Shown piece by piece: positions 4,258 through 18,183 of a DNA stretch of 24,048 bases (its first letter is position 1; each line of letters starts with the position of its first letter). The position numbers were made by a program, and so were the translations under genes. The stretch is taken from positions 1 through 24,048 of the IMG/VR virus record IMGVR_UViG_3300029258_004552; one strand, 5' to 3'. The notes under the pieces are model-generated. The model ran no database searches and was not told the DNA's origin. It saw nothing but the letters and a program-made list of their open reading frames with translations. The DNA comes from a virus.

Positions 4258-5205
4258 TTACGCTGATAGGGTTGATCTAAGATTAATCACCCAAGCATCG
4301 TTGGTAATGCGAGGAACTTGCGCGAACTTGTATCCAACACTTGCATTGAGAGCGAGTGGTCCATCATAGATAGGTGGTCTATAGATAAATTGAGAACTAT
4401 AGCCATCTTGTTCTACCACGGCATACGCTTCCATCCCCACACAGAAAATGTTGTACACATCGTTTCCATTGTTGGAGCCGTTTTGGGTGACACTTCCAAT
4501 ACTAGAGAGTAAGAAACGTAAGTTAGACACAGAACCCCACTCAGGACGCAGAGTAGACATTTGAGAAGGATACTGAGCTTTAGCAATAAAGCCCTGTACT
4601 TGCTCTAGGTCTCCAATGAGCTGAGTGTTACCCAGTGCAAAATAGGCATCTCTGACAGGAGCGGTACCAAATCGGTCTTCTCCTTCGATGTTATCTGCAA
4701 TGGTGTAGGCATTGTTATCCGCTAAAGTACGAATAACAGTATCGACATCAGAACGGGTGATTTCCGTAGGATTATCACCATTGGTACCCCCGGTACAGTT
4801 AATAGAACTAGCTGTACTTTGGAGCATATTTCTAGTAAGCTCATCTTCAGTTTGTCTTAAAGACACTCCAAGTCTTTGTGCTGCTTCATTAAGCACTGGG
4901 TCTTGGTTTTGAAGAGTGACTTGCTCGTTTAAAATGATGTAAGTTCCATAGAAATCTATTTCCGCATCAATATTGACGGCTGTCAATTGTTGAGGAGGAG
5001 GAGTTACACCAGTATTCCCTAGCGGCACCGTAGCAGTGAGCAAGGGATTATACCTACGCATTCTAAGAGTAGTACCACCATTACGGGGCATATTCTTAAG
5101 CATCGCGGGTATGTTATGAATCATGTACGGAACTGGTACGGACAGAAGCTTGTACGAGAAGCTCTGCTGTACCGGTGCCGGTAACACAGTTGTGGTTGTG
5201 GTCAT
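4258..5205 (-). CDS. Major capsid protein, N4-gp56 family
   Basis: A 315-residue protein with the signature core of the N4-gp56 coat family, IDFYGTYIILNEQVTLQNQDPVLNEAAQRLGVSLRQTEDELTRNML (about residues 82-127), and RNGGTTLRMRRYNPLL near the N-terminus. Length is normal for the family, which forms the HK97-fold shell. The gene sits between a scaffold-like gene (16-base gap) and a probable decoration gene, the usual head order. ATG 5205 is preceded by GAGGTATCGC. Confident from sequence pattern and context. Confidence 0.88.
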   Translation of the reverse strand: MTTTTTVLPAPVQQSFSYKLLSVPVPYMIHNIPAMLKNMPRNGGTTLRMRRYNPLLTATVPLGNTGVTPPPQQLTAVNIDAEIDFYGTYIILNEQVTLQNQDPVLNEAAQRLGVSLRQTEDELTRNMLQSTASSINCTGGTNGDNPTEITRSDVDTVIRTLADNNAYTIADNIEGEDRFGTAPVRDAYFALGNTQLIGDLEQVQGFIAKAQYPSQMSTLRPEWGSVSNLRFLLSSIGSVTQNGSNNGNDVYNIFCVGMEAYAVVEQDGYSSQFIYRPPIYDGPLALNASVGYKFAQVPRITNDAWVINLRSTLSA

Positions 5206-8816: not shown

Positions 8817-8847
8817 AAAAAAAGACCCGAATTTTTCAAAACGGGCC
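8817..8847 (-). terminator. Rho-independent terminator after the outer-membrane gene
   Basis: On the minus strand a 6-bp stem (GGCCCG with CGGGTC, one G-U pair) and a 12-base loop are followed by seven T. It sits 25 bases beyond the stop of the gene at 8872-9423 and before the helicase start. Confidence 0.75.
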
Positions 8848-8871
8848 TAAGGGAGAGAAGTCAGAAATAAA

Positions 8872-9423
8872 TTAGAATCCTATTCCCATACGACATCCGA
8901 AATGGTGAAGAGAAGTGTTTTCATACTTTCCCCATGCATACGGTTTATAGGTAAGCTCAAAGAAGACTTTTTTACTTTCGTCAAGATTGAAATCATGCCC
9001 AAGAGAAGCCGATGGATGAAGAGCATAATCTTTTTCTCGCCTTCCATAATAGCTTCGGGTTTTGACTCCTACTAGATCAGTTCCTACCCCAGCATATAGC
9101 TGACCTTTGTCAGTAGAATGAAGGGATTTGTATATATTCACCCCCACCTTTCCAAAGTGCCACGGAGAATAAACAGTTTTCATATATTTATATCCTCCGT
9201 TGACATCAAAAATATAAGAACCGTTTTGGTATCGATGACCCATAGAAGGATGTGAGACACCTTGGCTTCCAAATTCATATCCCATATAGGTGGTGTGAGA
9301 TTCTTTATTCTCTTCTCTACATTTATGGGTACCAAATGGAAAAGAGTCTTCCGATTCTGCTGCCATTAATGAGCCCGTTATTACAAGTCCAGTACAAAGT
9401 AACATTAATTTTGAAAATTTCAT
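8872..9423 (-). CDS. Exported beta-barrel outer-membrane protein (phage moron)
   Basis: A 183-residue protein with a classic signal peptide (MKFSKLMLLCTGLVITGSLMAA, cleavage near A22). The mature part has alternating aromatic/polar strands (TTYMGYEFGSQG, YIFDVNGGYKYMKT, GQLYAGVGTDLVGVKT, KVFFELTYKPYAWG) and ends in HHFGCRMGIGF. A terminal Phe is the usual signal for insertion into the outer membrane, so an eight-stranded barrel is plausible. Strong ribosome site AAAGGAG precedes the ATG, and the gene has its own terminator. An independently transcribed envelope gene in a phage is a moron pattern that could alter host surface or block superinfection. Whether the prophage expresses it is inference. 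Confidence 0.72.
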   Translation of the reverse strand: MKFSKLMLLCTGLVITGSLMAAESEDSFPFGTHKCREENKESHTTYMGYEFGSQGVSHPSMGHRYQNGSYIFDVNGGYKYMKTVYSPWHFGKVGVNIYKSLHSTDKGQLYAGVGTDLVGVKTRSYYGRREKDYALHPSASLGHDFNLDESKKVFFELTYKPYAWGKYENTSLHHFGCRMGIGF

Positions 9424-9436
9424 TTCTAACTCCTTT

Positions 9437-9512
9437 TAAAGGTTAAGTTTCCAAACTATAACAAATATGGAGTAAAGAAACCACCCATTAATGGCGTTTC
9501 TAAACTTTACTC
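9437..9512. promoter_or_regulatory. Repeat-rich site upstream of the recombinase: possible res or operator
   Basis: In the 199-base divergent gap (9424-9622), GTTTCCAAACTATA (9437-9450) and GTTTCTAAACTTTA (9496-9509) match at 12 of 14 bases. GAGTAAAG (9470-9477) and CTTTACTC (9505-9512) are perfect inverted arms around a central CATTAATG. Paired, inverted subsites beside a serine recombinase gene are typical of res/crossover or autoregulatory sites. The rest of the gap is AT-rich with A-tracts and no gene; TATAGT at about 9447-9452 (minus) could be a -10 box for the membrane protein gene. Confidence 0.4.
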
Positions 9513-9622
9513 GTTTTCCCTCAAGAAAAGCCGTGTTTGAGGTAAAAAAAGTATGTAAAAAAAGAAATGGTTAAATTAAAATGGAAGGAGCCCTTTTTTA
9601 ACTTTTAAAGAGAAGAGAAAAC

Positions 9623-10180
9623 ATGAAATTTGGATATGCGAGAATATCTACCCCCAAACAATCTTTAGACAATCAAGTGGCTCTTTTGGAAGATGCCGGA
9701 TGCGAGAAAATATTTTCTGACGTCATTTCGGGATACAATTCTAAAAAGAACAAATTTGAGGAGATGATGGGAGAGTTACGTAAAGAAGATTCCTTGGTGG
9801 TAACCGGAATTGATAGATTAGGAAGATCAACAAAAGATTTGGCATTGTTGATTGAGGAGCTTCATAATCGAGAAATAAATTTGATTGTTTTGGGCTATGA
9901 TATGGATACGCGCACTGCCTCTGGGAAAATGATGTTTAATTTTATGGCAATGATTGCGGAGAATGAAAGAATGAGAAATCTAGAAAGAATTAGACAGGGA
10001 ATTGAAGGAGCCCGAAAAAGAGGAAAGCACATTGGAAGAGCTCCAAAGCTTTCCGCAGAAAAAATTAAAAGACTCCAATCTCTTTATCAAGAAAAAAGGT
10101 TGAGTGTAATGGAGATGTGTTTAATGTATGGAATAACCAAACCCACTCTATATAAATATGTAAGGAGAAATCATGAATGA
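9623..10180 (+). CDS. Serine recombinase, resolvase/invertase family
   Basis: A 185-residue small serine recombinase. Catalytic Ser9 lies in YARISTPKQS with Arg7. The active-site cluster DRLGRS is at 64-69 (Arg65 and Arg68), followed by the long E helix (MFNFMAMIAENERMRNLERIRQGIEGARKRGKHIGRAP) and a C-terminal helix-turn-helix (about 160-181, SVMEMCLMYGITKPTLYKYVRR). All hallmarks of the Tn3 resolvase/Hin class are present and length is full. It would cut and rejoin two short DNA sites, resolving dimers or inverting DNA. A repeat-rich candidate site lies upstream. The stop overlaps the next gene start by 8 bases, so the alpha-CTD-like protein is probably translated with it. Confidence 0.93.
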   Translation: MKFGYARISTPKQSLDNQVALLEDAGCEKIFSDVISGYNSKKNKFEEMMGELRKEDSLVVTGIDRLGRSTKDLALLIEELHNREINLIVLGYDMDTRTASGKMMFNFMAMIAENERMRNLERIRQGIEGARKRGKHIGRAPKLSAEKIKRLQSLYQEKRLSVMEMCLMYGITKPTLYKYVRRNHE

Positions 10181-10865
10181 GTTTAATCACGAAGCGATGG
10201 AAGCGTATGCCCAAAATCTCAAAGAATCCATGCTCAAACAATGGGAAAGAGTCAATAAGTCTATCACGAGCTTCGAACTTAATCTCAATCGCCAAAGAAA
10301 AATGTTTGAGGAAAACCATCTTAAAATGTTGCAAGAAGTACACAAAGAAACCCAAAAATGTATCTCCGACTTTTCCTCCAAATCGAATGATTTAAGAGAG
10401 ATGATAATTGGTTTAAGGGAACAACTGGCATATATCGCTACCCAACAAAATCTAGAAGAGATTTCTAAACAATCTACTGCTTTAGCTCTAAAAGAAGCTA
10501 AAACCTTAATTAATAAAGATCTTTGGGACGAAAACCTCCAAAGGCTTTTTGATTATATTAATGGAATTACCAAAGCAGTAGGGGAATTTTCTCAAATTGT
10601 TTTCACATATGATATGCGTTTTAAAGTAGATCATCCTTCTCTTTTCAAGGAACTTAATGAGAGCGCTTCCCAATTTCTTAATTCAACTTTGCAAGAAGCC
10701 GAGTTAAGTGTAAGAACGGAAAATTGCTTACTCCAAACGGAATGCAAGACTATGAGAGATGTGTATAAAAAACCACCTTCTGAGCTGTTAAAACACAGAA
10801 ATTTTGGAAAGAAATCTATTAATGAACTTCGAAAGAAGTTTGAAGATAAAGGAATTAAATGGTAG
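10173..10865 (+). CDS. Coiled-coil protein with C-terminal RNA polymerase alpha-CTD-like domain
   Basis: A 230-residue protein. Residues about 1-110 are helical with coiled-coil character (ESMLKQWERVNKS, ENHLKMLQEVHKET), followed by a mixed middle segment (111-165). Residues 173-230 align without gaps to E. coli RpoA 257-314: ELSVRTENCL matches ELTVRSANCL and RNFGKKSINEL matches PNLGKKSLTEI. The UP-element contacts R265, N268, C269, G296, K298, S299 and E302 correspond to R181, N184, C185, G212, K214, S215 and E218. Acidic positions 259 and 261, which face sigma-70, are E175 and E177. The protein lacks the RpoA N-terminal dimerisation domain, so it is not a polymerase subunit. It may bind UP-like DNA or compete with host alpha. 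The alpha numbering is from memory; the role is inference. Confidence 0.8.
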   Translation: MNEFNHEAMEAYAQNLKESMLKQWERVNKSITSFELNLNRQRKMFEENHLKMLQEVHKETQKCISDFSSKSNDLREMIIGLREQLAYIATQQNLEEISKQSTALALKEAKTLINKDLWDENLQRLFDYINGITKAVGEFSQIVFTYDMRFKVDHPSLFKELNESASQFLNSTLQEAELSVRTENCLLQTECKTMRDVYKKPPSELLKHRNFGKKSINELRKKFEDKGIKW

Positions 10866-11053
10866 AAGAGGATGATTTACTTACAATTTTAATCTTTAAT
10901 CTCAAACTTAAAAAACTAGACTATGAAAGAATGCACCGTCTGTTTATAAAGGATAGGGCAGGCCCGACGATTCATTTTTCAAAAGGAATGATTGAAGGTC
11001 TCAGTGAAGCAATAAAGATTGCGGAACAGTCCAAAAACCTTAAGACGGAATAG
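10859..11053 (+). CDS. Small protein of the recombinase/alpha-CTD operon
   Basis: A 64-residue protein (LLTILIFNLKLKKLDYERMHRLFIKDRAGPTIHFSKGMIEGLSEAIKIAEQ) whose start overlaps the alpha-CTD gene end by 7 bases, so it is probably translationally coupled. The sequence looks helical, without signal peptide or known motif. Function unknown; it may be a partner of the preceding protein. Confidence 0.55.
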   Translation: MVEEDDLLTILIFNLKLKKLDYERMHRLFIKDRAGPTIHFSKGMIEGLSEAIKIAEQSKNLKTE

Positions 11054-11055
11054 TC

Positions 11056-11214
11056 ATGGAAAAAAGTAAAAAAGTTAAAGACCACTCTTCGAATTCGGCT
11101 CATAAGATTACTCAAATGGAGGAACGGTTACATAGAATGTGGGACTGTATGCTACAAATGAGTGACAAAATAACCGAGATCAAATATCTTATTAAATCAA
11201 TGAACATCAAATAA
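11056..11214 (+). CDS. Small coiled-coil protein (52 aa)
   Basis: ATG 11056 opens a 52-residue frame two bases after the preceding stop. The second half (ITQMEERLHRMWDCMLQMSDKITEIKYLIKSMNIK) has a heptad-like hydrophobic pattern typical of a short coiled coil. AAGACGGAA lies upstream as a weak ribosome site. No known family. Confidence 0.45.
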   Translation: MEKSKKVKDHSSNSAHKITQMEERLHRMWDCMLQMSDKITEIKYLIKSMNIK

Positions 11215-11234
11215 ACTATTAATTAGGAGGTTCC

Positions 11235-11438
11235 ATGGAAGCTCTTTCAATTGAACAAATGGATTTGTTTGAAGGAAAACTATTTCCTGAGTTTATCCAT
11301 GCTGAAAAAATTAGAGTTTTAGAAGAGAAGCAAGAGAATTTGAGACGGGGTCTTTTTAAAAGGTGGAATGATCAAGAGAAAAAGATCAATACTCTCACAG
11401 AATCTCTAGAAAAACTGGTAAAACTGTTAGAAAAATAA
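11235..11438 (+). CDS. Small coiled-coil protein (67 aa)
   Basis: A 67-residue, mostly helical protein (AEKIRVLEEKQENLRRGLFKRWNDQEKKINTLTESLEKLVKLLEK) preceded by a strong ribosome site (AGGAGG). Heptad leucines run to the C-terminus, so it probably oligomerises or binds another coiled coil of this operon. Function unknown. Confidence 0.58.
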   Translation: MEALSIEQMDLFEGKLFPEFIHAEKIRVLEEKQENLRRGLFKRWNDQEKKINTLTESLEKLVKLLEK

Positions 11439-14370: not shown

Positions 14371-16432
14371 TTTTTTCTCCTTCTGCCATTACGGCGAGTT
14401 CTTCTATGTTTGGGGTTTCAACCTGCGCCTTATCTCTTCGGGCCTCTGAAGATTGCTGTCCGTCTATATATTCGGAGAGCCTTAGAAGCCTTTCTATCTG
14501 GTCTAAATCCATTCCTTCAAGCTCTTTCATTGCTTTCACTTTGTGGAGGGTGCCCAGATCGCGATCTTTTTCAGATTCGGCTAGCCTTTCTACGGCTAAA
14601 GCGCGGTTTTCTTGTACTCGCGAGGCTCTTTCCAAACCAAGCCCCGCATTTGCCTCAGCCCGTGCTTCGAGGTCTTTTATTTTGGCCTCTTGTTCGGCCA
14701 TCGCAGCTTGAAGTTGCATTTGTTGCATCTCTTGCTGCTGACTTTCCTGTTGGTCTATCGCTTCCACGAGCTCTTTTTTATTTTGAAGCGTTGATGCCTC
14801 TATCAGGATGTCATTTGGTATGGGAAGTCCCAACTCTCGAAGAGAAATGAGTTGTTGAAACATCATTTGTCTTTGTGTTGAGGTATTAGTCCCCTCTTCT
14901 ATCGATACATCGTATTTTCCGAATGCTTTCGAATAGAACTGAGGAGAGGGATCTTCACCGATAATTCTTTTAATTTTTCCAGGAGAAAAGTTGGTTTGAA
15001 TAAGCTGGAGGAAAAGTCTTCCTAAGGTTTTCTGTGAAAAGTCCAGTTGATCAAACAAGGTTTGCAAGGTAGTGAGGCCAGCTCCCTGACGAAGCATGGA
15101 AAGAATTCCTGCTTTATCATCTTCAGCACTCCCGAGAAGCTCTTCATTTACTCCAGAGATTTGTTGGATTTCTTCTCCTAAAATCTTGGAAAGTTCAATC
15201 ATAGATGAGGGAACACTAGGGGGTTGAATTTGTTCCGCATCACTCATTTGAGCATCCTGTTTGAGAGCGAGACCTCTCCCTTGCCCCTGAAGGAATACAT
15301 CTTTCGGATTAACCAGAGAATCGGCTTTGTATTTCCATCCAGAGTTTATTTGAGACTCTAAAATATCTAGCTCAATCACTTTACGGCGATTATAGAGATA
15401 CTGAGAGTCTCGAAGCCCTCGTACTACTCCTTGAATCCTCCACGGAAAGTAAGGAATCTGTGGGTCGTAATACCCGAGAGCAGGTACGAAGGGATAGGGA
15501 TCGATGCCCATTGGATTAGGCCCATGATACATGACCACTCCTTGAACAACGATCGCAAGTTTAGTTGTTTGAATTTCATTATCGATAACAGTGATTTCAG
15601 GGAAGCGGGATAGGAAAAGGTCGAGTTCTTCGTCTTTTCCTCTCCATTCCATAGTTTCTCCCGTCTTTACATCGACCAGCAGCTTCTGGGTTCGATAGTC
15701 TCTGTACCAATATTCATCGTAGGTGAGAAGGTCTTTCATTCCATAGTTGTAGGCCTCGGGCATAAACTGGAACTTTCCGTCGCGATTTCCTCGTGCATAA
15801 AGTTTATCAATATCTGATTTTCTATCGGGGAGGAGAGCTTTTATTTGCGTTTTAGTGAGCCACTTCCGTGTCCAAACATAGTTGCAATCGCTTAGGTCGT
15901 GCTTTTTAAAGAAAGGATCAATAAGATAACCATTATAAGAAACATTATCAACACAGATATCTCCATTAATTGGATCCTCCCGATAATCCATCCAGACGGA
16001 AAGAAGATTCATTCCAGTTGTAACCGCTCCATCAAAAGCTTGAGAAATGGTTTCAAGAGTATTATCTTTGTTCATCGCCCAGAGCATAATCTTTGAGAAT
16101 TGGTCCGCCGTCAATTCATCGGAGTTTTCTATAGGAACTGCTACTGAACTTTTTCGATTGCGCCTCTGATATCCCGTAATCATGTTGCAAACTCGACGGA
16201 TACGATTGAAATTGAAAACCCTACGGCGAAATGCGGGAAGGTTTCCATAAATATCGTTCCAAAGAGTCTGGTCTCCTGCTTTGAAACGAGAATCGATATC
16301 AGCTTCTGACCAGAAGGATTGATTAATCGTTATACTGTTAGCATAGGCTTGTTCCATCATGACCTTTACATCTTTATCGTGTTCGGTCTGATAAGAATAA
16401 AAATCGCTATCTAGTTGCGGAAACAGTGTCAT
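14363..16432 (-). CDS. Portal protein, P22-like
   Basis: A 689-residue protein of normal length for P22-like portals, which form the twelve-fold ring through which DNA enters the head. Conserved pieces include FNFNRIRRVCNMITGYQRRNRKS, GVVRGLRDSQYLYNRRKVIELDILESQINSGW, SGVNEELLGSAEDDKAGILSMLRQGAG and a long C-terminal coiled coil rich in Gln, Ala and Glu (about 560-640), the likely barrel. It starts by a 4-base ATGA overlap with the terminase fragment. High confidence from pattern, length and location. Confidence 0.9.
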   Translation of the reverse strand: MTLFPQLDSDFYSYQTEHDKDVKVMMEQAYANSITINQSFWSEADIDSRFKAGDQTLWNDIYGNLPAFRRRVFNFNRIRRVCNMITGYQRRNRKSSVAVPIENSDELTADQFSKIMLWAMNKDNTLETISQAFDGAVTTGMNLLSVWMDYREDPINGDICVDNVSYNGYLIDPFFKKHDLSDCNYVWTRKWLTKTQIKALLPDRKSDIDKLYARGNRDGKFQFMPEAYNYGMKDLLTYDEYWYRDYRTQKLLVDVKTGETMEWRGKDEELDLFLSRFPEITVIDNEIQTTKLAIVVQGVVMYHGPNPMGIDPYPFVPALGYYDPQIPYFPWRIQGVVRGLRDSQYLYNRRKVIELDILESQINSGWKYKADSLVNPKDVFLQGQGRGLALKQDAQMSDAEQIQPPSVPSSMIELSKILGEEIQQISGVNEELLGSAEDDKAGILSMLRQGAGLTTLQTLFDQLDFSQKTLGRLFLQLIQTNFSPGKIKRIIGEDPSPQFYSKAFGKYDVSIEEGTNTSTQRQMMFQQLISLRELGLPIPNDILIEASTLQNKKELVEAIDQQESQQQEMQQMQLQAAMAEQEAKIKDLEARAEANAGLGLERASRVQENRALAVERLAESEKDRDLGTLHKVKAMKELEGMDLDQIERLLRLSEYIDGQQSSEARRDKAQVETPNIEELAVMAEGEKNG

Positions 16433-16836
16433 TGATAGGTCCCTGTAGAATGGTTGTCTTTAAAAAATGCTGGAAGCTTCTGTTCAGCTCCAAAATGAGC
16501 TTCATGATATCGTGCCTCTATCTCGTCTGCGCTTAGAGAATCAAAGGTTTTGGAAAGTGATACCGCAAGATACCTAAAAGCGTCAGCATAATGGCTGCTC
16601 CAATCATGCAGAGGACGAGGAAGATAAACTTTTTTCTTGGAGTCATATTCTTGCCTATAGTTTTCGAGAGCTTTAATTAAATCTGCGCACTTTTCTGCAT
16701 CCATCCAAATCTTAGAAAAGAGAGAACGGCAAGCTTCTATCCCGTCCGGAACTTCATATTGAGGAGCCACAGTAAACTGGATACCGAGTTGACGGGCCTT
16801 TTCAAATCGAGTAATGCCGGATCCCCATTCCTTCAC
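16429..16836 (-). CDS. terL: Terminase large subunit, C-terminal nuclease fragment (frameshifted)
   Basis: A 135-residue frame opened by GTG at 16836, carrying the end of the terminase nuclease domain: VKEWGSGITRFEKARQLG, EACRSLFSKIWMDAEKCADLIKALENYRQEYD and HDWSSHYADAFRYLAVSL with a catalytic Asp. Upstream in the same frame HIGPHDIR is still readable, so the frame continues the family sequence without the usual preceding helix. GTGA overlap with the stop of the N-terminal fragment could allow coupled translation of two pieces, but the intact nuclease fold seems to be broken. Confidence 0.72.
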   Translation of the reverse strand: MKEWGSGITRFEKARQLGIQFTVAPQYEVPDGIEACRSLFSKIWMDAEKCADLIKALENYRQEYDSKKKVYLPRPLHDWSSHYADAFRYLAVSLSKTFDSLSADEIEARYHEAHFGAEQKLPAFFKDNHSTGTYQ

Positions 16837-17762
16837 ACGAATATCGTGGGGGCCGATGTGAGTTGCTTGCTGTTCTCATAGCAGTCGATAATGCGTAGAG
16901 TTTGCCCAATGTTTTGAAAGAAAATAATTGATGTTTGATCCCGAACCCCAATGTCCCACGCTGTGTGTACCTTGAATCCCGATTCCCAAGGAACGACTCC
17001 AATTTGTTCGTTTCGTTTACACCTATCAATATATTTATTATAATAGGAGCCCTCAATACCCATATCGAAAGAGGTGTAATACTCCTGTTGAATCATGTCC
17101 TCCGACATTAGCCCTTCACGCCGTTCCTTTTCGATTTCGGAGAGCGGAATATGCTCAGTATCTTCAACAGTGAGTTTGTAGGAAAACCAGTCGGGGGACT
17201 CTTTGGAAAGTTGATAGAGGGTCCACAGATGATTCTTGCCTCGAGGAGTTGAGATAAAAAGGGCCCAACCCCCATTGGCCGTCAATATGGGACGTATGTA
17301 CTGATATGCTAACGGATCTTGCAATGCATACTCCGAGAAAACGCATCCGCGAGGGTTGGTACCCATGAGAGAATCGTAATTATCCGATCCAATCAATTGG
17401 AAAAGAGAGGTCTTTCCTCCCTTAGCTACCATACGTACTTTCATCTCTTGAGAGTTGAGCTGCAGGACAAGTTCTTTGGGAAAATAATCCAGTATCCTCT
17501 TTCCATCATTGGTAATTGAATCCCAAATTACTTTTTTAGCTTGCGAGTAAGTCGGAAAAATGTAGTAATAAACCCCAGGATTTTCCCACATCTGGCGGAT
17601 AACATAATTTAATGCCGTAATATCCTTTCCAGCACGACGTGGAAGTATAGCAAGAACGCGCTTGTACCCATCGGCAAGTGCTTTAAGAATAGGAGCCTGA
17701 TATGACCTAGGTTTATACTCGTTAAGCCTGTTTTCTACTTCGACGCTTGTTAGCGTTTTCAT
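16833..17762 (-). CDS. terL: Terminase large subunit, N-terminal ATPase fragment (frameshifted)
   Basis: The packaging motor ATPase. Walker A-like PRRAGKD is at 41-47 from the chosen Met, followed by YYYIFPTYSQAKKVIWDSI, Walker B-like GCVFSEYA, coupling motif FISTPRGKNHL, and the first nuclease strand AWDIGVRDQTSIIFFQ. After IIDCYENSKQ the frame runs into LTSAPTIFV and stops. The expected next residues (a helix like GL..Y...L....Y.Y and then HIGPHDIR) are missing or out of frame. ATG 17762 is preferred; ATG 17819 or TTG 17834 would lengthen it inside the small terminase gene. Confidence 0.8.
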   Translation of the reverse strand: MKTLTSVEVENRLNEYKPRSYQAPILKALADGYKRVLAILPRRAGKDITALNYVIRQMWENPGVYYYIFPTYSQAKKVIWDSITNDGKRILDYFPKELVLQLNSQEMKVRMVAKGGKTSLFQLIGSDNYDSLMGTNPRGCVFSEYALQDPLAYQYIRPILTANGGWALFISTPRGKNHLWTLYQLSKESPDWFSYKLTVEDTEHIPLSEIEKERREGLMSEDMIQQEYYTSFDMGIEGSYYNKYIDRCKRNEQIGVVPWESGFKVHTAWDIGVRDQTSIIFFQNIGQTLRIIDCYENSKQLTSAPTIFV

Positions 17763-18183
17763 CGTAGAGGCGCTTATAAAGTCCCTCAAGTCGTTCTTTT
17801 GAATAGTCTTCGACTGCATAATTGGTAACGGCAAAAGTGGTGTTCTGTGCTACTTCTTTTTTAGCCTCCTGATCCACAGAGTAGGCATGATTGTCGTAGA
17901 CACGGAGATATTTCATTAGGACTGCTTGCATGTGCCTTGGAAGATCTTTCTCCCTCTTCATGGCATAATCGAGCCACTTGGAGCAAAGACCAGAGATGAC
18001 AACTTCAAAAGTGTGGTGAAGTTGCGGGCACATTTTCATCATGGCCTGGAAGTATGTCCATCCAAGTCCATGAGACTTAAGGAATTGAGGGATAGTCCAG
18101 CTATCTTCACGTTCAGCCCATGTCTCGAGCCATTCACAAACCGTGTCGATATATTCTGGGGAAACTGATATTTCGTGAGCCAT
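17722..18183 (-). CDS. Probable terminase small subunit
   Basis: A 153-residue helical protein (YIDTVCEWLETWAEREDSWTIPQFLKSHGLGWTYFQAMMKMCPQLHHTFEVV...RVYDNHAYSVDQEAKKE) directly upstream of and overlapping terL by 41 bases. The helix-turn-helix-like N-terminus and ring-forming helical middle fit a pac-site recognition protein. No strict sequence signature, so the call rests mainly on position. A 24-base palindrome lies just upstream. Confidence 0.7.
   Translation of the reverse strand: MAHEISVSPEYIDTVCEWLETWAEREDSWTIPQFLKSHGLGWTYFQAMMKMCPQLHHTFEVVISGLCSKWLDYAMKREKDLPRHMQAVLMKYLRVYDNHAYSVDQEAKKEVAQNTTFAVTNYAVEDYSKERLEGLYKRLYDENANKRRSRKQA

Follow-up and report, generated by a model that had tools for sequence, protein, structure and literature searches.

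A P22-like phage gene encodes a free-standing RNA polymerase alpha-CTD on a helical stalk that may act on host promoters

Host RNA polymerase uses the C-terminal domain of its alpha subunit (alpha-CTD), which grips DNA, to find promoters. T4 factors bind or modify the host alpha-CTD. A phage factor that cleaves it has also been described (PMC7552054). The phage analysed here does something else: it brings its own copy. Phage proteins with an alpha-CTD are already known as annotated but uncharacterised products. ORF 40 of Erythrobacter phage vB_EliS-L02 is annotated as an alpha-CTD protein (PMC9127768), the alpha-CTD protein of Ruegeria phage vB_RpoS-V16 stands under the annotation HTH-domain protein, and some phage records already carry the alpha-CTD name. 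PHROGs holds no good family for these proteins, and in the open-access literature we found annotation only and no tested function. The gene described here joins this group. Our analysis adds a present/absent cassette, ties the gene to a chlamydial phage group, and sets a contact-keeping copy against contact-losing sister copies.

The whole stretch of DNA analysed, hereinafter the window, is a 24,048-bp IMG/VR virus record (IMGVR_UViG_3300029258_004552). It encodes a P22-type portal (PF16510, E 5e-78) and also carries terminase, ERF, SSB and YqaJ genes. The phage is P22-like, and the first-pass annotation, made from the letters, was right to regard the alpha-CTD gene as phage-borne. The large terminase gene is apparently split into two frames on the minus strand (16429-16836 and 16833-17834) that overlap by 4 bases. 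The window portal has relatives at 79 viral loci and four in assembled genomes, namely a Simkaniaceae MAG, a Chlamydiia MAG, a Chlamydiae MAG and one archaeon-labelled MAG, the last possibly mis-binned. Because portal relatives lie in chlamydial MAGs, the host is probably a member of the Chlamydiota. The gene would also give an entry point for studying how phages of chlamydia-like bacteria control transcription, about which little is known. The locus comprises the following features.

9424-9622, plus strand: operon upstream region, with A-tracts at 9545-9553 and 9557-9566 (sequence)
9623-10180, plus strand: serine recombinase of invertase/resolvase type, 185 aa (PF00239, E 2.4e-36; PHROG DNA invertase, E 9e-59)
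10173-10865, plus strand: alpha-CTD gene, 230 aa, with a helical N-terminus and a C-terminal alpha-CTD (ATG ORF; PF03118; AlphaFold)
10176-10613, plus strand: long helical N-terminal region, not RpoA (AlphaFold; no family match)
10188-10884, plus strand: present/absent cassette, 697 bp (blastn against related phage L099)
10662-10862, plus strand: alpha-CTD domain, residues 164-230 (PF03118, residue mapping, structure superposition)
10859-11053, plus strand: 64-aa ORF, the 3' neighbour, overlapping the alpha-CTD gene by 7 bases
11235-11438, plus strand: 67-aa ORF (MDLFEG family), found after the recombinase in most relatives

The serine recombinase gene is the 5' operon partner of the alpha-CTD gene, and the ORFs confirm the 8-base overlap between the two that had been noted earlier.

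By profile and by predicted structure, residues 164-230 of the 230-aa protein form a genuine RNA polymerase alpha-CTD. The PF03118 match covers residues 164-224, with an E value of 5.9e-15 and 55.2 bits against a curated cut-off of 23.8 bits. Residues 173-230 align without gaps to residues 257-314 of E. coli RpoA (sequence from the public record), with 19 of 58 positions identical. The BLOSUM62 score of this alignment is 90, nine standard deviations above the scores of 20,000 shuffles (mean -49, s.d. 15.5, maximum 30). Specifically, the six UP-element contacts of RpoA, R265, N268, C269, K298, S299 and E302, all have the same residue in the window protein (R181, N184, C185, K214, S215 and E218), and the 265-determinant is kept, G296 included. 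The sigma-facing positions 259 and 261 are both E in the window protein, and D and E in E. coli. The first-pass annotation had named the alpha-CTD on the strength of this alignment, these contacts and these acidic residues; PF03118, AlphaFold and the contact residues bear it out.

The AlphaFold model of the protein has a mean pLDDT of 80.5, rising to 93-97 over residues 171-230 and 87 over residues 161-170. The modelled domain has the helix-hairpin-helix fold of an alpha-CTD and superposes on the E. coli alpha-CTD with 1.1 Å over 63 residues (Foldseek); the structure matched is 8y5t_A2 (63 residues, 1.1 Å, TM 0.87 by target). It lies 1.1–1.3 Å from alpha-CTD structures of E. coli, Caulobacter and Bacillus, and the Foldseek matches on DNA include 3n97 (UP DNA and sigma region 4), 1lb2 (CAP-DNA) and 9zum (Caulobacter, AT-rich DNA). 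When the PDB is searched by sequence, every match is an RNA polymerase alpha chain.

The rest of the protein is of a different kind. As proposed at first reading, the N-terminus is helical and unrelated to RpoA: AlphaFold places helices at residues 2-112 and 118-147, and Pfam detects no RpoA N-terminal domain in the window protein. No Pfam or NCBIfam family matches this region above cut-off. The proposed coiled coil fares less well than the helices, since hydrophobic periodicity is marginal (p about 0.03-0.05 in better stretches, 0.2 in another). The helical stalk would probably oligomerise. Eight NCBIfam RpoA models match the C-terminal end of the protein and none of the eight reaches its cut-off; the RpoA equivalogs reach 36-54 bits where 228-523 are required, at the C-terminus only. 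The window protein has no alpha N-terminal assembly domain and so cannot be an assembled alpha subunit. Other identities were rejected. PmgS-like head morphogenesis protein (phrog_1660, E 0.012) matches the end of the domain only, BREX PglW reaches 14 bits against a cut-off of 990 over residues 166-223 only, and a role in a defence system is unsupported. A single-sequence search of assembled-genome and viral contigs found no full-length homologue.

The best sequence matches of the window protein are chlamydial RpoA proteins, mostly at 47-51% identity and at most 62 bits. In the pooled comparison, other phage alpha-CTDs reach at most 58 bits, and RpoA of Enterococcus, Clostridioides, Parabacteroides and Sphingomonas 48-52 bits. 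At each of the 13 positions compared (259, 261, 264, 265, 268, 269, 294-299 and 302), the window protein agrees with all 28 distinct chlamydial RpoA, which do not vary there. These best matches and shared contact residues are consistent with capture of the domain from a host-like rpoA. A clade of the window protein with chlamydial RpoA was not found in the trees, nor was it rejected (p-AU 0.34).

Closer relatives share the place of the gene more than its surface. Among 50 related phage records, one has a PF03118 match, L079 (the same as G048), in a 139-aa protein. The second carrier, the portal relative L103 (on the same contig as L012), likewise encodes 139 aa, and the two proteins are 63% identical to each other. 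In both relatives the alpha-CTD gene is directly upstream of the recombinase gene, separated by 12 bp in L079 and 3 bp in L103; in the window it is directly downstream and overlaps. All three proteins end in F....IKW, an ending absent from the RpoA compared. They group with support of 98/86 in a tree built from a short alignment of 62 columns that leaves out two divergent P5 rows; with those rows included the clade is not recovered, and it is therefore sensitive to taxon choice. A profile made from the window and L079 proteins matched L079 only, and one made from the L079 and L103 proteins matched those two only, among the matches listed.

Most of the contact residues are lost in L079 and L103. 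Specifically, R265 is R or H, C269 is A, K298 is G and S299 is A, and both sigma-facing acids are gone (259 is N, 261 is K). Even so, the L079 protein is still modelled as an alpha-CTD, 1.0–1.2 Å from alpha-CTD structures. The family is thus united by fold and place and not by the UP-contact surface, and because L079 and L103 lost most contact residues, the function common to the family may be other than UP-element binding. The domain could, for example, be a repurposed helix-hairpin-helix, mounted on a coiled coil to make protein-protein contacts, for which neither DNA binding nor sigma binding is the point. This would explain how two proteins with 63% identity can both be without the DNA and sigma residues while the fold is kept, and it fits the shared ending and the grouping of the three proteins. 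However, the grouping depends on which taxa are included, and every contact residue is kept in the window protein, as would hardly be expected of an unused surface. We consider such a repurposing improbable as an account of the window protein.

Comparison with the related phage L099 defines the unit that carries the gene. Where the window has 697 bp with the alpha-CTD gene, L099 has 17 bp; by blastn, window 8817-10187 corresponds to L099 4582-5941 and window 10885-11398 to L099 5959-6472, at 76% and 82% nucleotide identity, respectively. The cassette boundaries are those of blastn, as a MAFFT alignment of the junction scattered the insert. In L099 the recombinase stop overlaps the start of the counterpart of the 64-aa ORF, and the genes are directly joined. 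L101 and L102 are also without the alpha-CTD gene. The gene is therefore an optional one-gene cassette, inserted into a coupled operon so neatly that it overlaps both neighbours, by 8 and 7 bases. A single-gene cassette known from only three phages of the group might be a captured rpoA fragment with no selected function, a passive decoy or neutral passenger, but the frame is intact, the overlaps with both neighbours are kept, and the contacts persist although identity to chlamydial RpoA is only 45-50%. The two relatives have likewise diverged from each other without a break in the frame. We regard a passenger without function as very unlikely.

The recombinase gene occurs in at least 11 of the 50 related phage records, nearly always without the alpha-CTD gene. 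Since most of the relatives that carry the recombinase lack the cassette, the recombinase does not need the alpha-CTD gene. In one of these records, L089, the second gene after the recombinase (L089:88-1041, minus strand) encodes a 317-aa U-box protein (PF04564, E 6e-5, over the cut-off). The U-box is a eukaryote-type ubiquitin-ligase domain, and the bacterium of the L089 phage is probably intracellular. The L089 recombinase match (G017:21924-22466) spans one in-frame TAG stop.

Fis works as an accessory factor in Hin/Gin inversion, and the window protein could serve its neighbouring serine recombinase in a comparable way, by binding near crossover sites or by bridging synapses. The first-pass annotation had suggested that it guides the recombinase with which it is translated. 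The adjacency behind that suggestion holds, as the gene immediately adjoins the same recombinase, on one side or the other, in all three carriers of the phage group; the DNA-contact residues of the window protein are intact, and a strong serine recombinase match lies on the fetched flank of 3 of 55 other viral alpha-CTD loci (L191, L216 and L217). The dependence does not hold: the recombinase is far more widespread in the 50 records than the single alpha-CTD gene found there, and the L099 operon has the gene cleanly missing. Furthermore, in L191 and L216 the recombinase and alpha-CTD genes are divergent and form no operon, and neither the window nor the L079 record (two pieces) contains a convincing inverted-repeat pair that would mark crossover sites or an invertible segment. 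A perfect 16-nt pair at 4420 and 10196 was rejected as a crossover site; both copies encode MEAYA within genes, and the match was attributed to chance. An accessory role in recombination is accordingly an unlikely explanation, though one with some support.

Contrary to what the first-pass annotation had implied, the window protein is not unique. A domain search yielded 55 viral loci with an alpha-CTD match, some of them near-copies of each other, so that comparable proteins exist in many phages. Pfam confirmed 12 other viral proteins outside the phage group of the window, and two more in L183, an unrelated record. Viral alpha-CTD proteins are small, with the alpha-CTD at either end. In L209:2575-3195 and L211:2620-3195, sigma-70 region 4 (PF04545, E 5e-10 and 8e-12) and PF03118 are in one chain; L190:2686-3186 is a fusion of HTH_3 and alpha-CTD, L189:890-1639 joins HTH_23 (just under cut-off) to an alpha-CTD, and L230:2806-3426 joins a Mor-like stretch to one. 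Such partners are what one would expect if these proteins were transcription modules. All 47 other viral alpha-CTDs that have a residue at position 265 keep the arginine, a count partly biased by the search pattern. Matches in the 'phages' and 'plasmids' collections are mostly ordinary rpoA on contigs so labelled and are not counted as precedents.

The two proteins of L183, a 19,526-bp record (L139, L141), are of 112 aa (58.9 bits) and 295 aa, and the latter has two PF03118 stretches. In Chlamydiota genomes G101, G109, G145, G177, G156, G174 and G116, a second PF03118 frame of 394-452 aa exists besides RpoA, and L177:1090-2286 has an alpha-CTD-like stretch in the first half of such a frame.

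We propose that the window protein works on host promoters as a free-standing alpha-CTD, a reading to which its conserved surfaces lend about an even chance. The alpha-CTD would be separated from the polymerase alpha subunit and mounted on a helical, probably oligomerising stalk, so that two or more domains could bind UP-like A-tracts upstream of promoters. As a recruiter, the protein would offer its sigma-facing side to sigma region 4 and bring polymerase to phage promoters; as a competitor, it would occupy sites that host alpha would otherwise use. In either case, host transcription would be shifted towards the phage. Binding at A-tracts together with sigma contact would imply action on host transcription; both roles, which the first-pass annotation had also put forward, are favoured, and the sequence does not separate them. 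A fuller scenario, in which the phage captured a host alpha-CTD onto an oligomerising stalk and redirects host transcription while its relatives switched the domain to a non-DNA role, is more doubtful.

The A-tracts upstream of the operon (9424-9622) are possible alpha-CTD sites. A-tract matches are frequent across the whole window (51 against 26 expected), and we therefore claim no UP site there. No sigma-70-like promoter was found in 9424-9622, and the 24,048-bp window yielded neither a promoter nor a UP site. The window gene is a good test case because all DNA contacts are kept and close relatives provide a natural present/absent pair.

Compared with the RNA polymerase alpha-CTD (E. coli RpoA 249-329; chlamydial RpoA), the window protein has the same fold, the same UP contacts and the sigma-facing acids. 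Unlike RpoA, it has an unrelated helical stalk in place of the alpha N-terminal domain and ends in IKW a few residues past the last helix. BREX PglW, which has an alpha-CTD-like stretch, resembles the window protein weakly and within the domain alone (E 8.5e-5 and 0.006); the window protein has no kinase, is one-sixth the length, and is not a BREX gene. The vB_EliS-L02 ORF 40 and vB_RpoS-V16 proteins are likewise small alpha-CTD proteins with no polymerase-assembly domain, and several other phage alpha-CTD proteins also have a helical partner region, but the phages, hosts and partner regions of these two differ from those of the window protein. The closest counterparts are the 139-aa proteins of L079 and L103, which have the same architecture of helical N-terminus and alpha-CTD, the same ending and the same recombinase beside them. 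They differ in a shorter stalk, in a gene placed before the recombinase, and in DNA and sigma contacts that are mostly lost.
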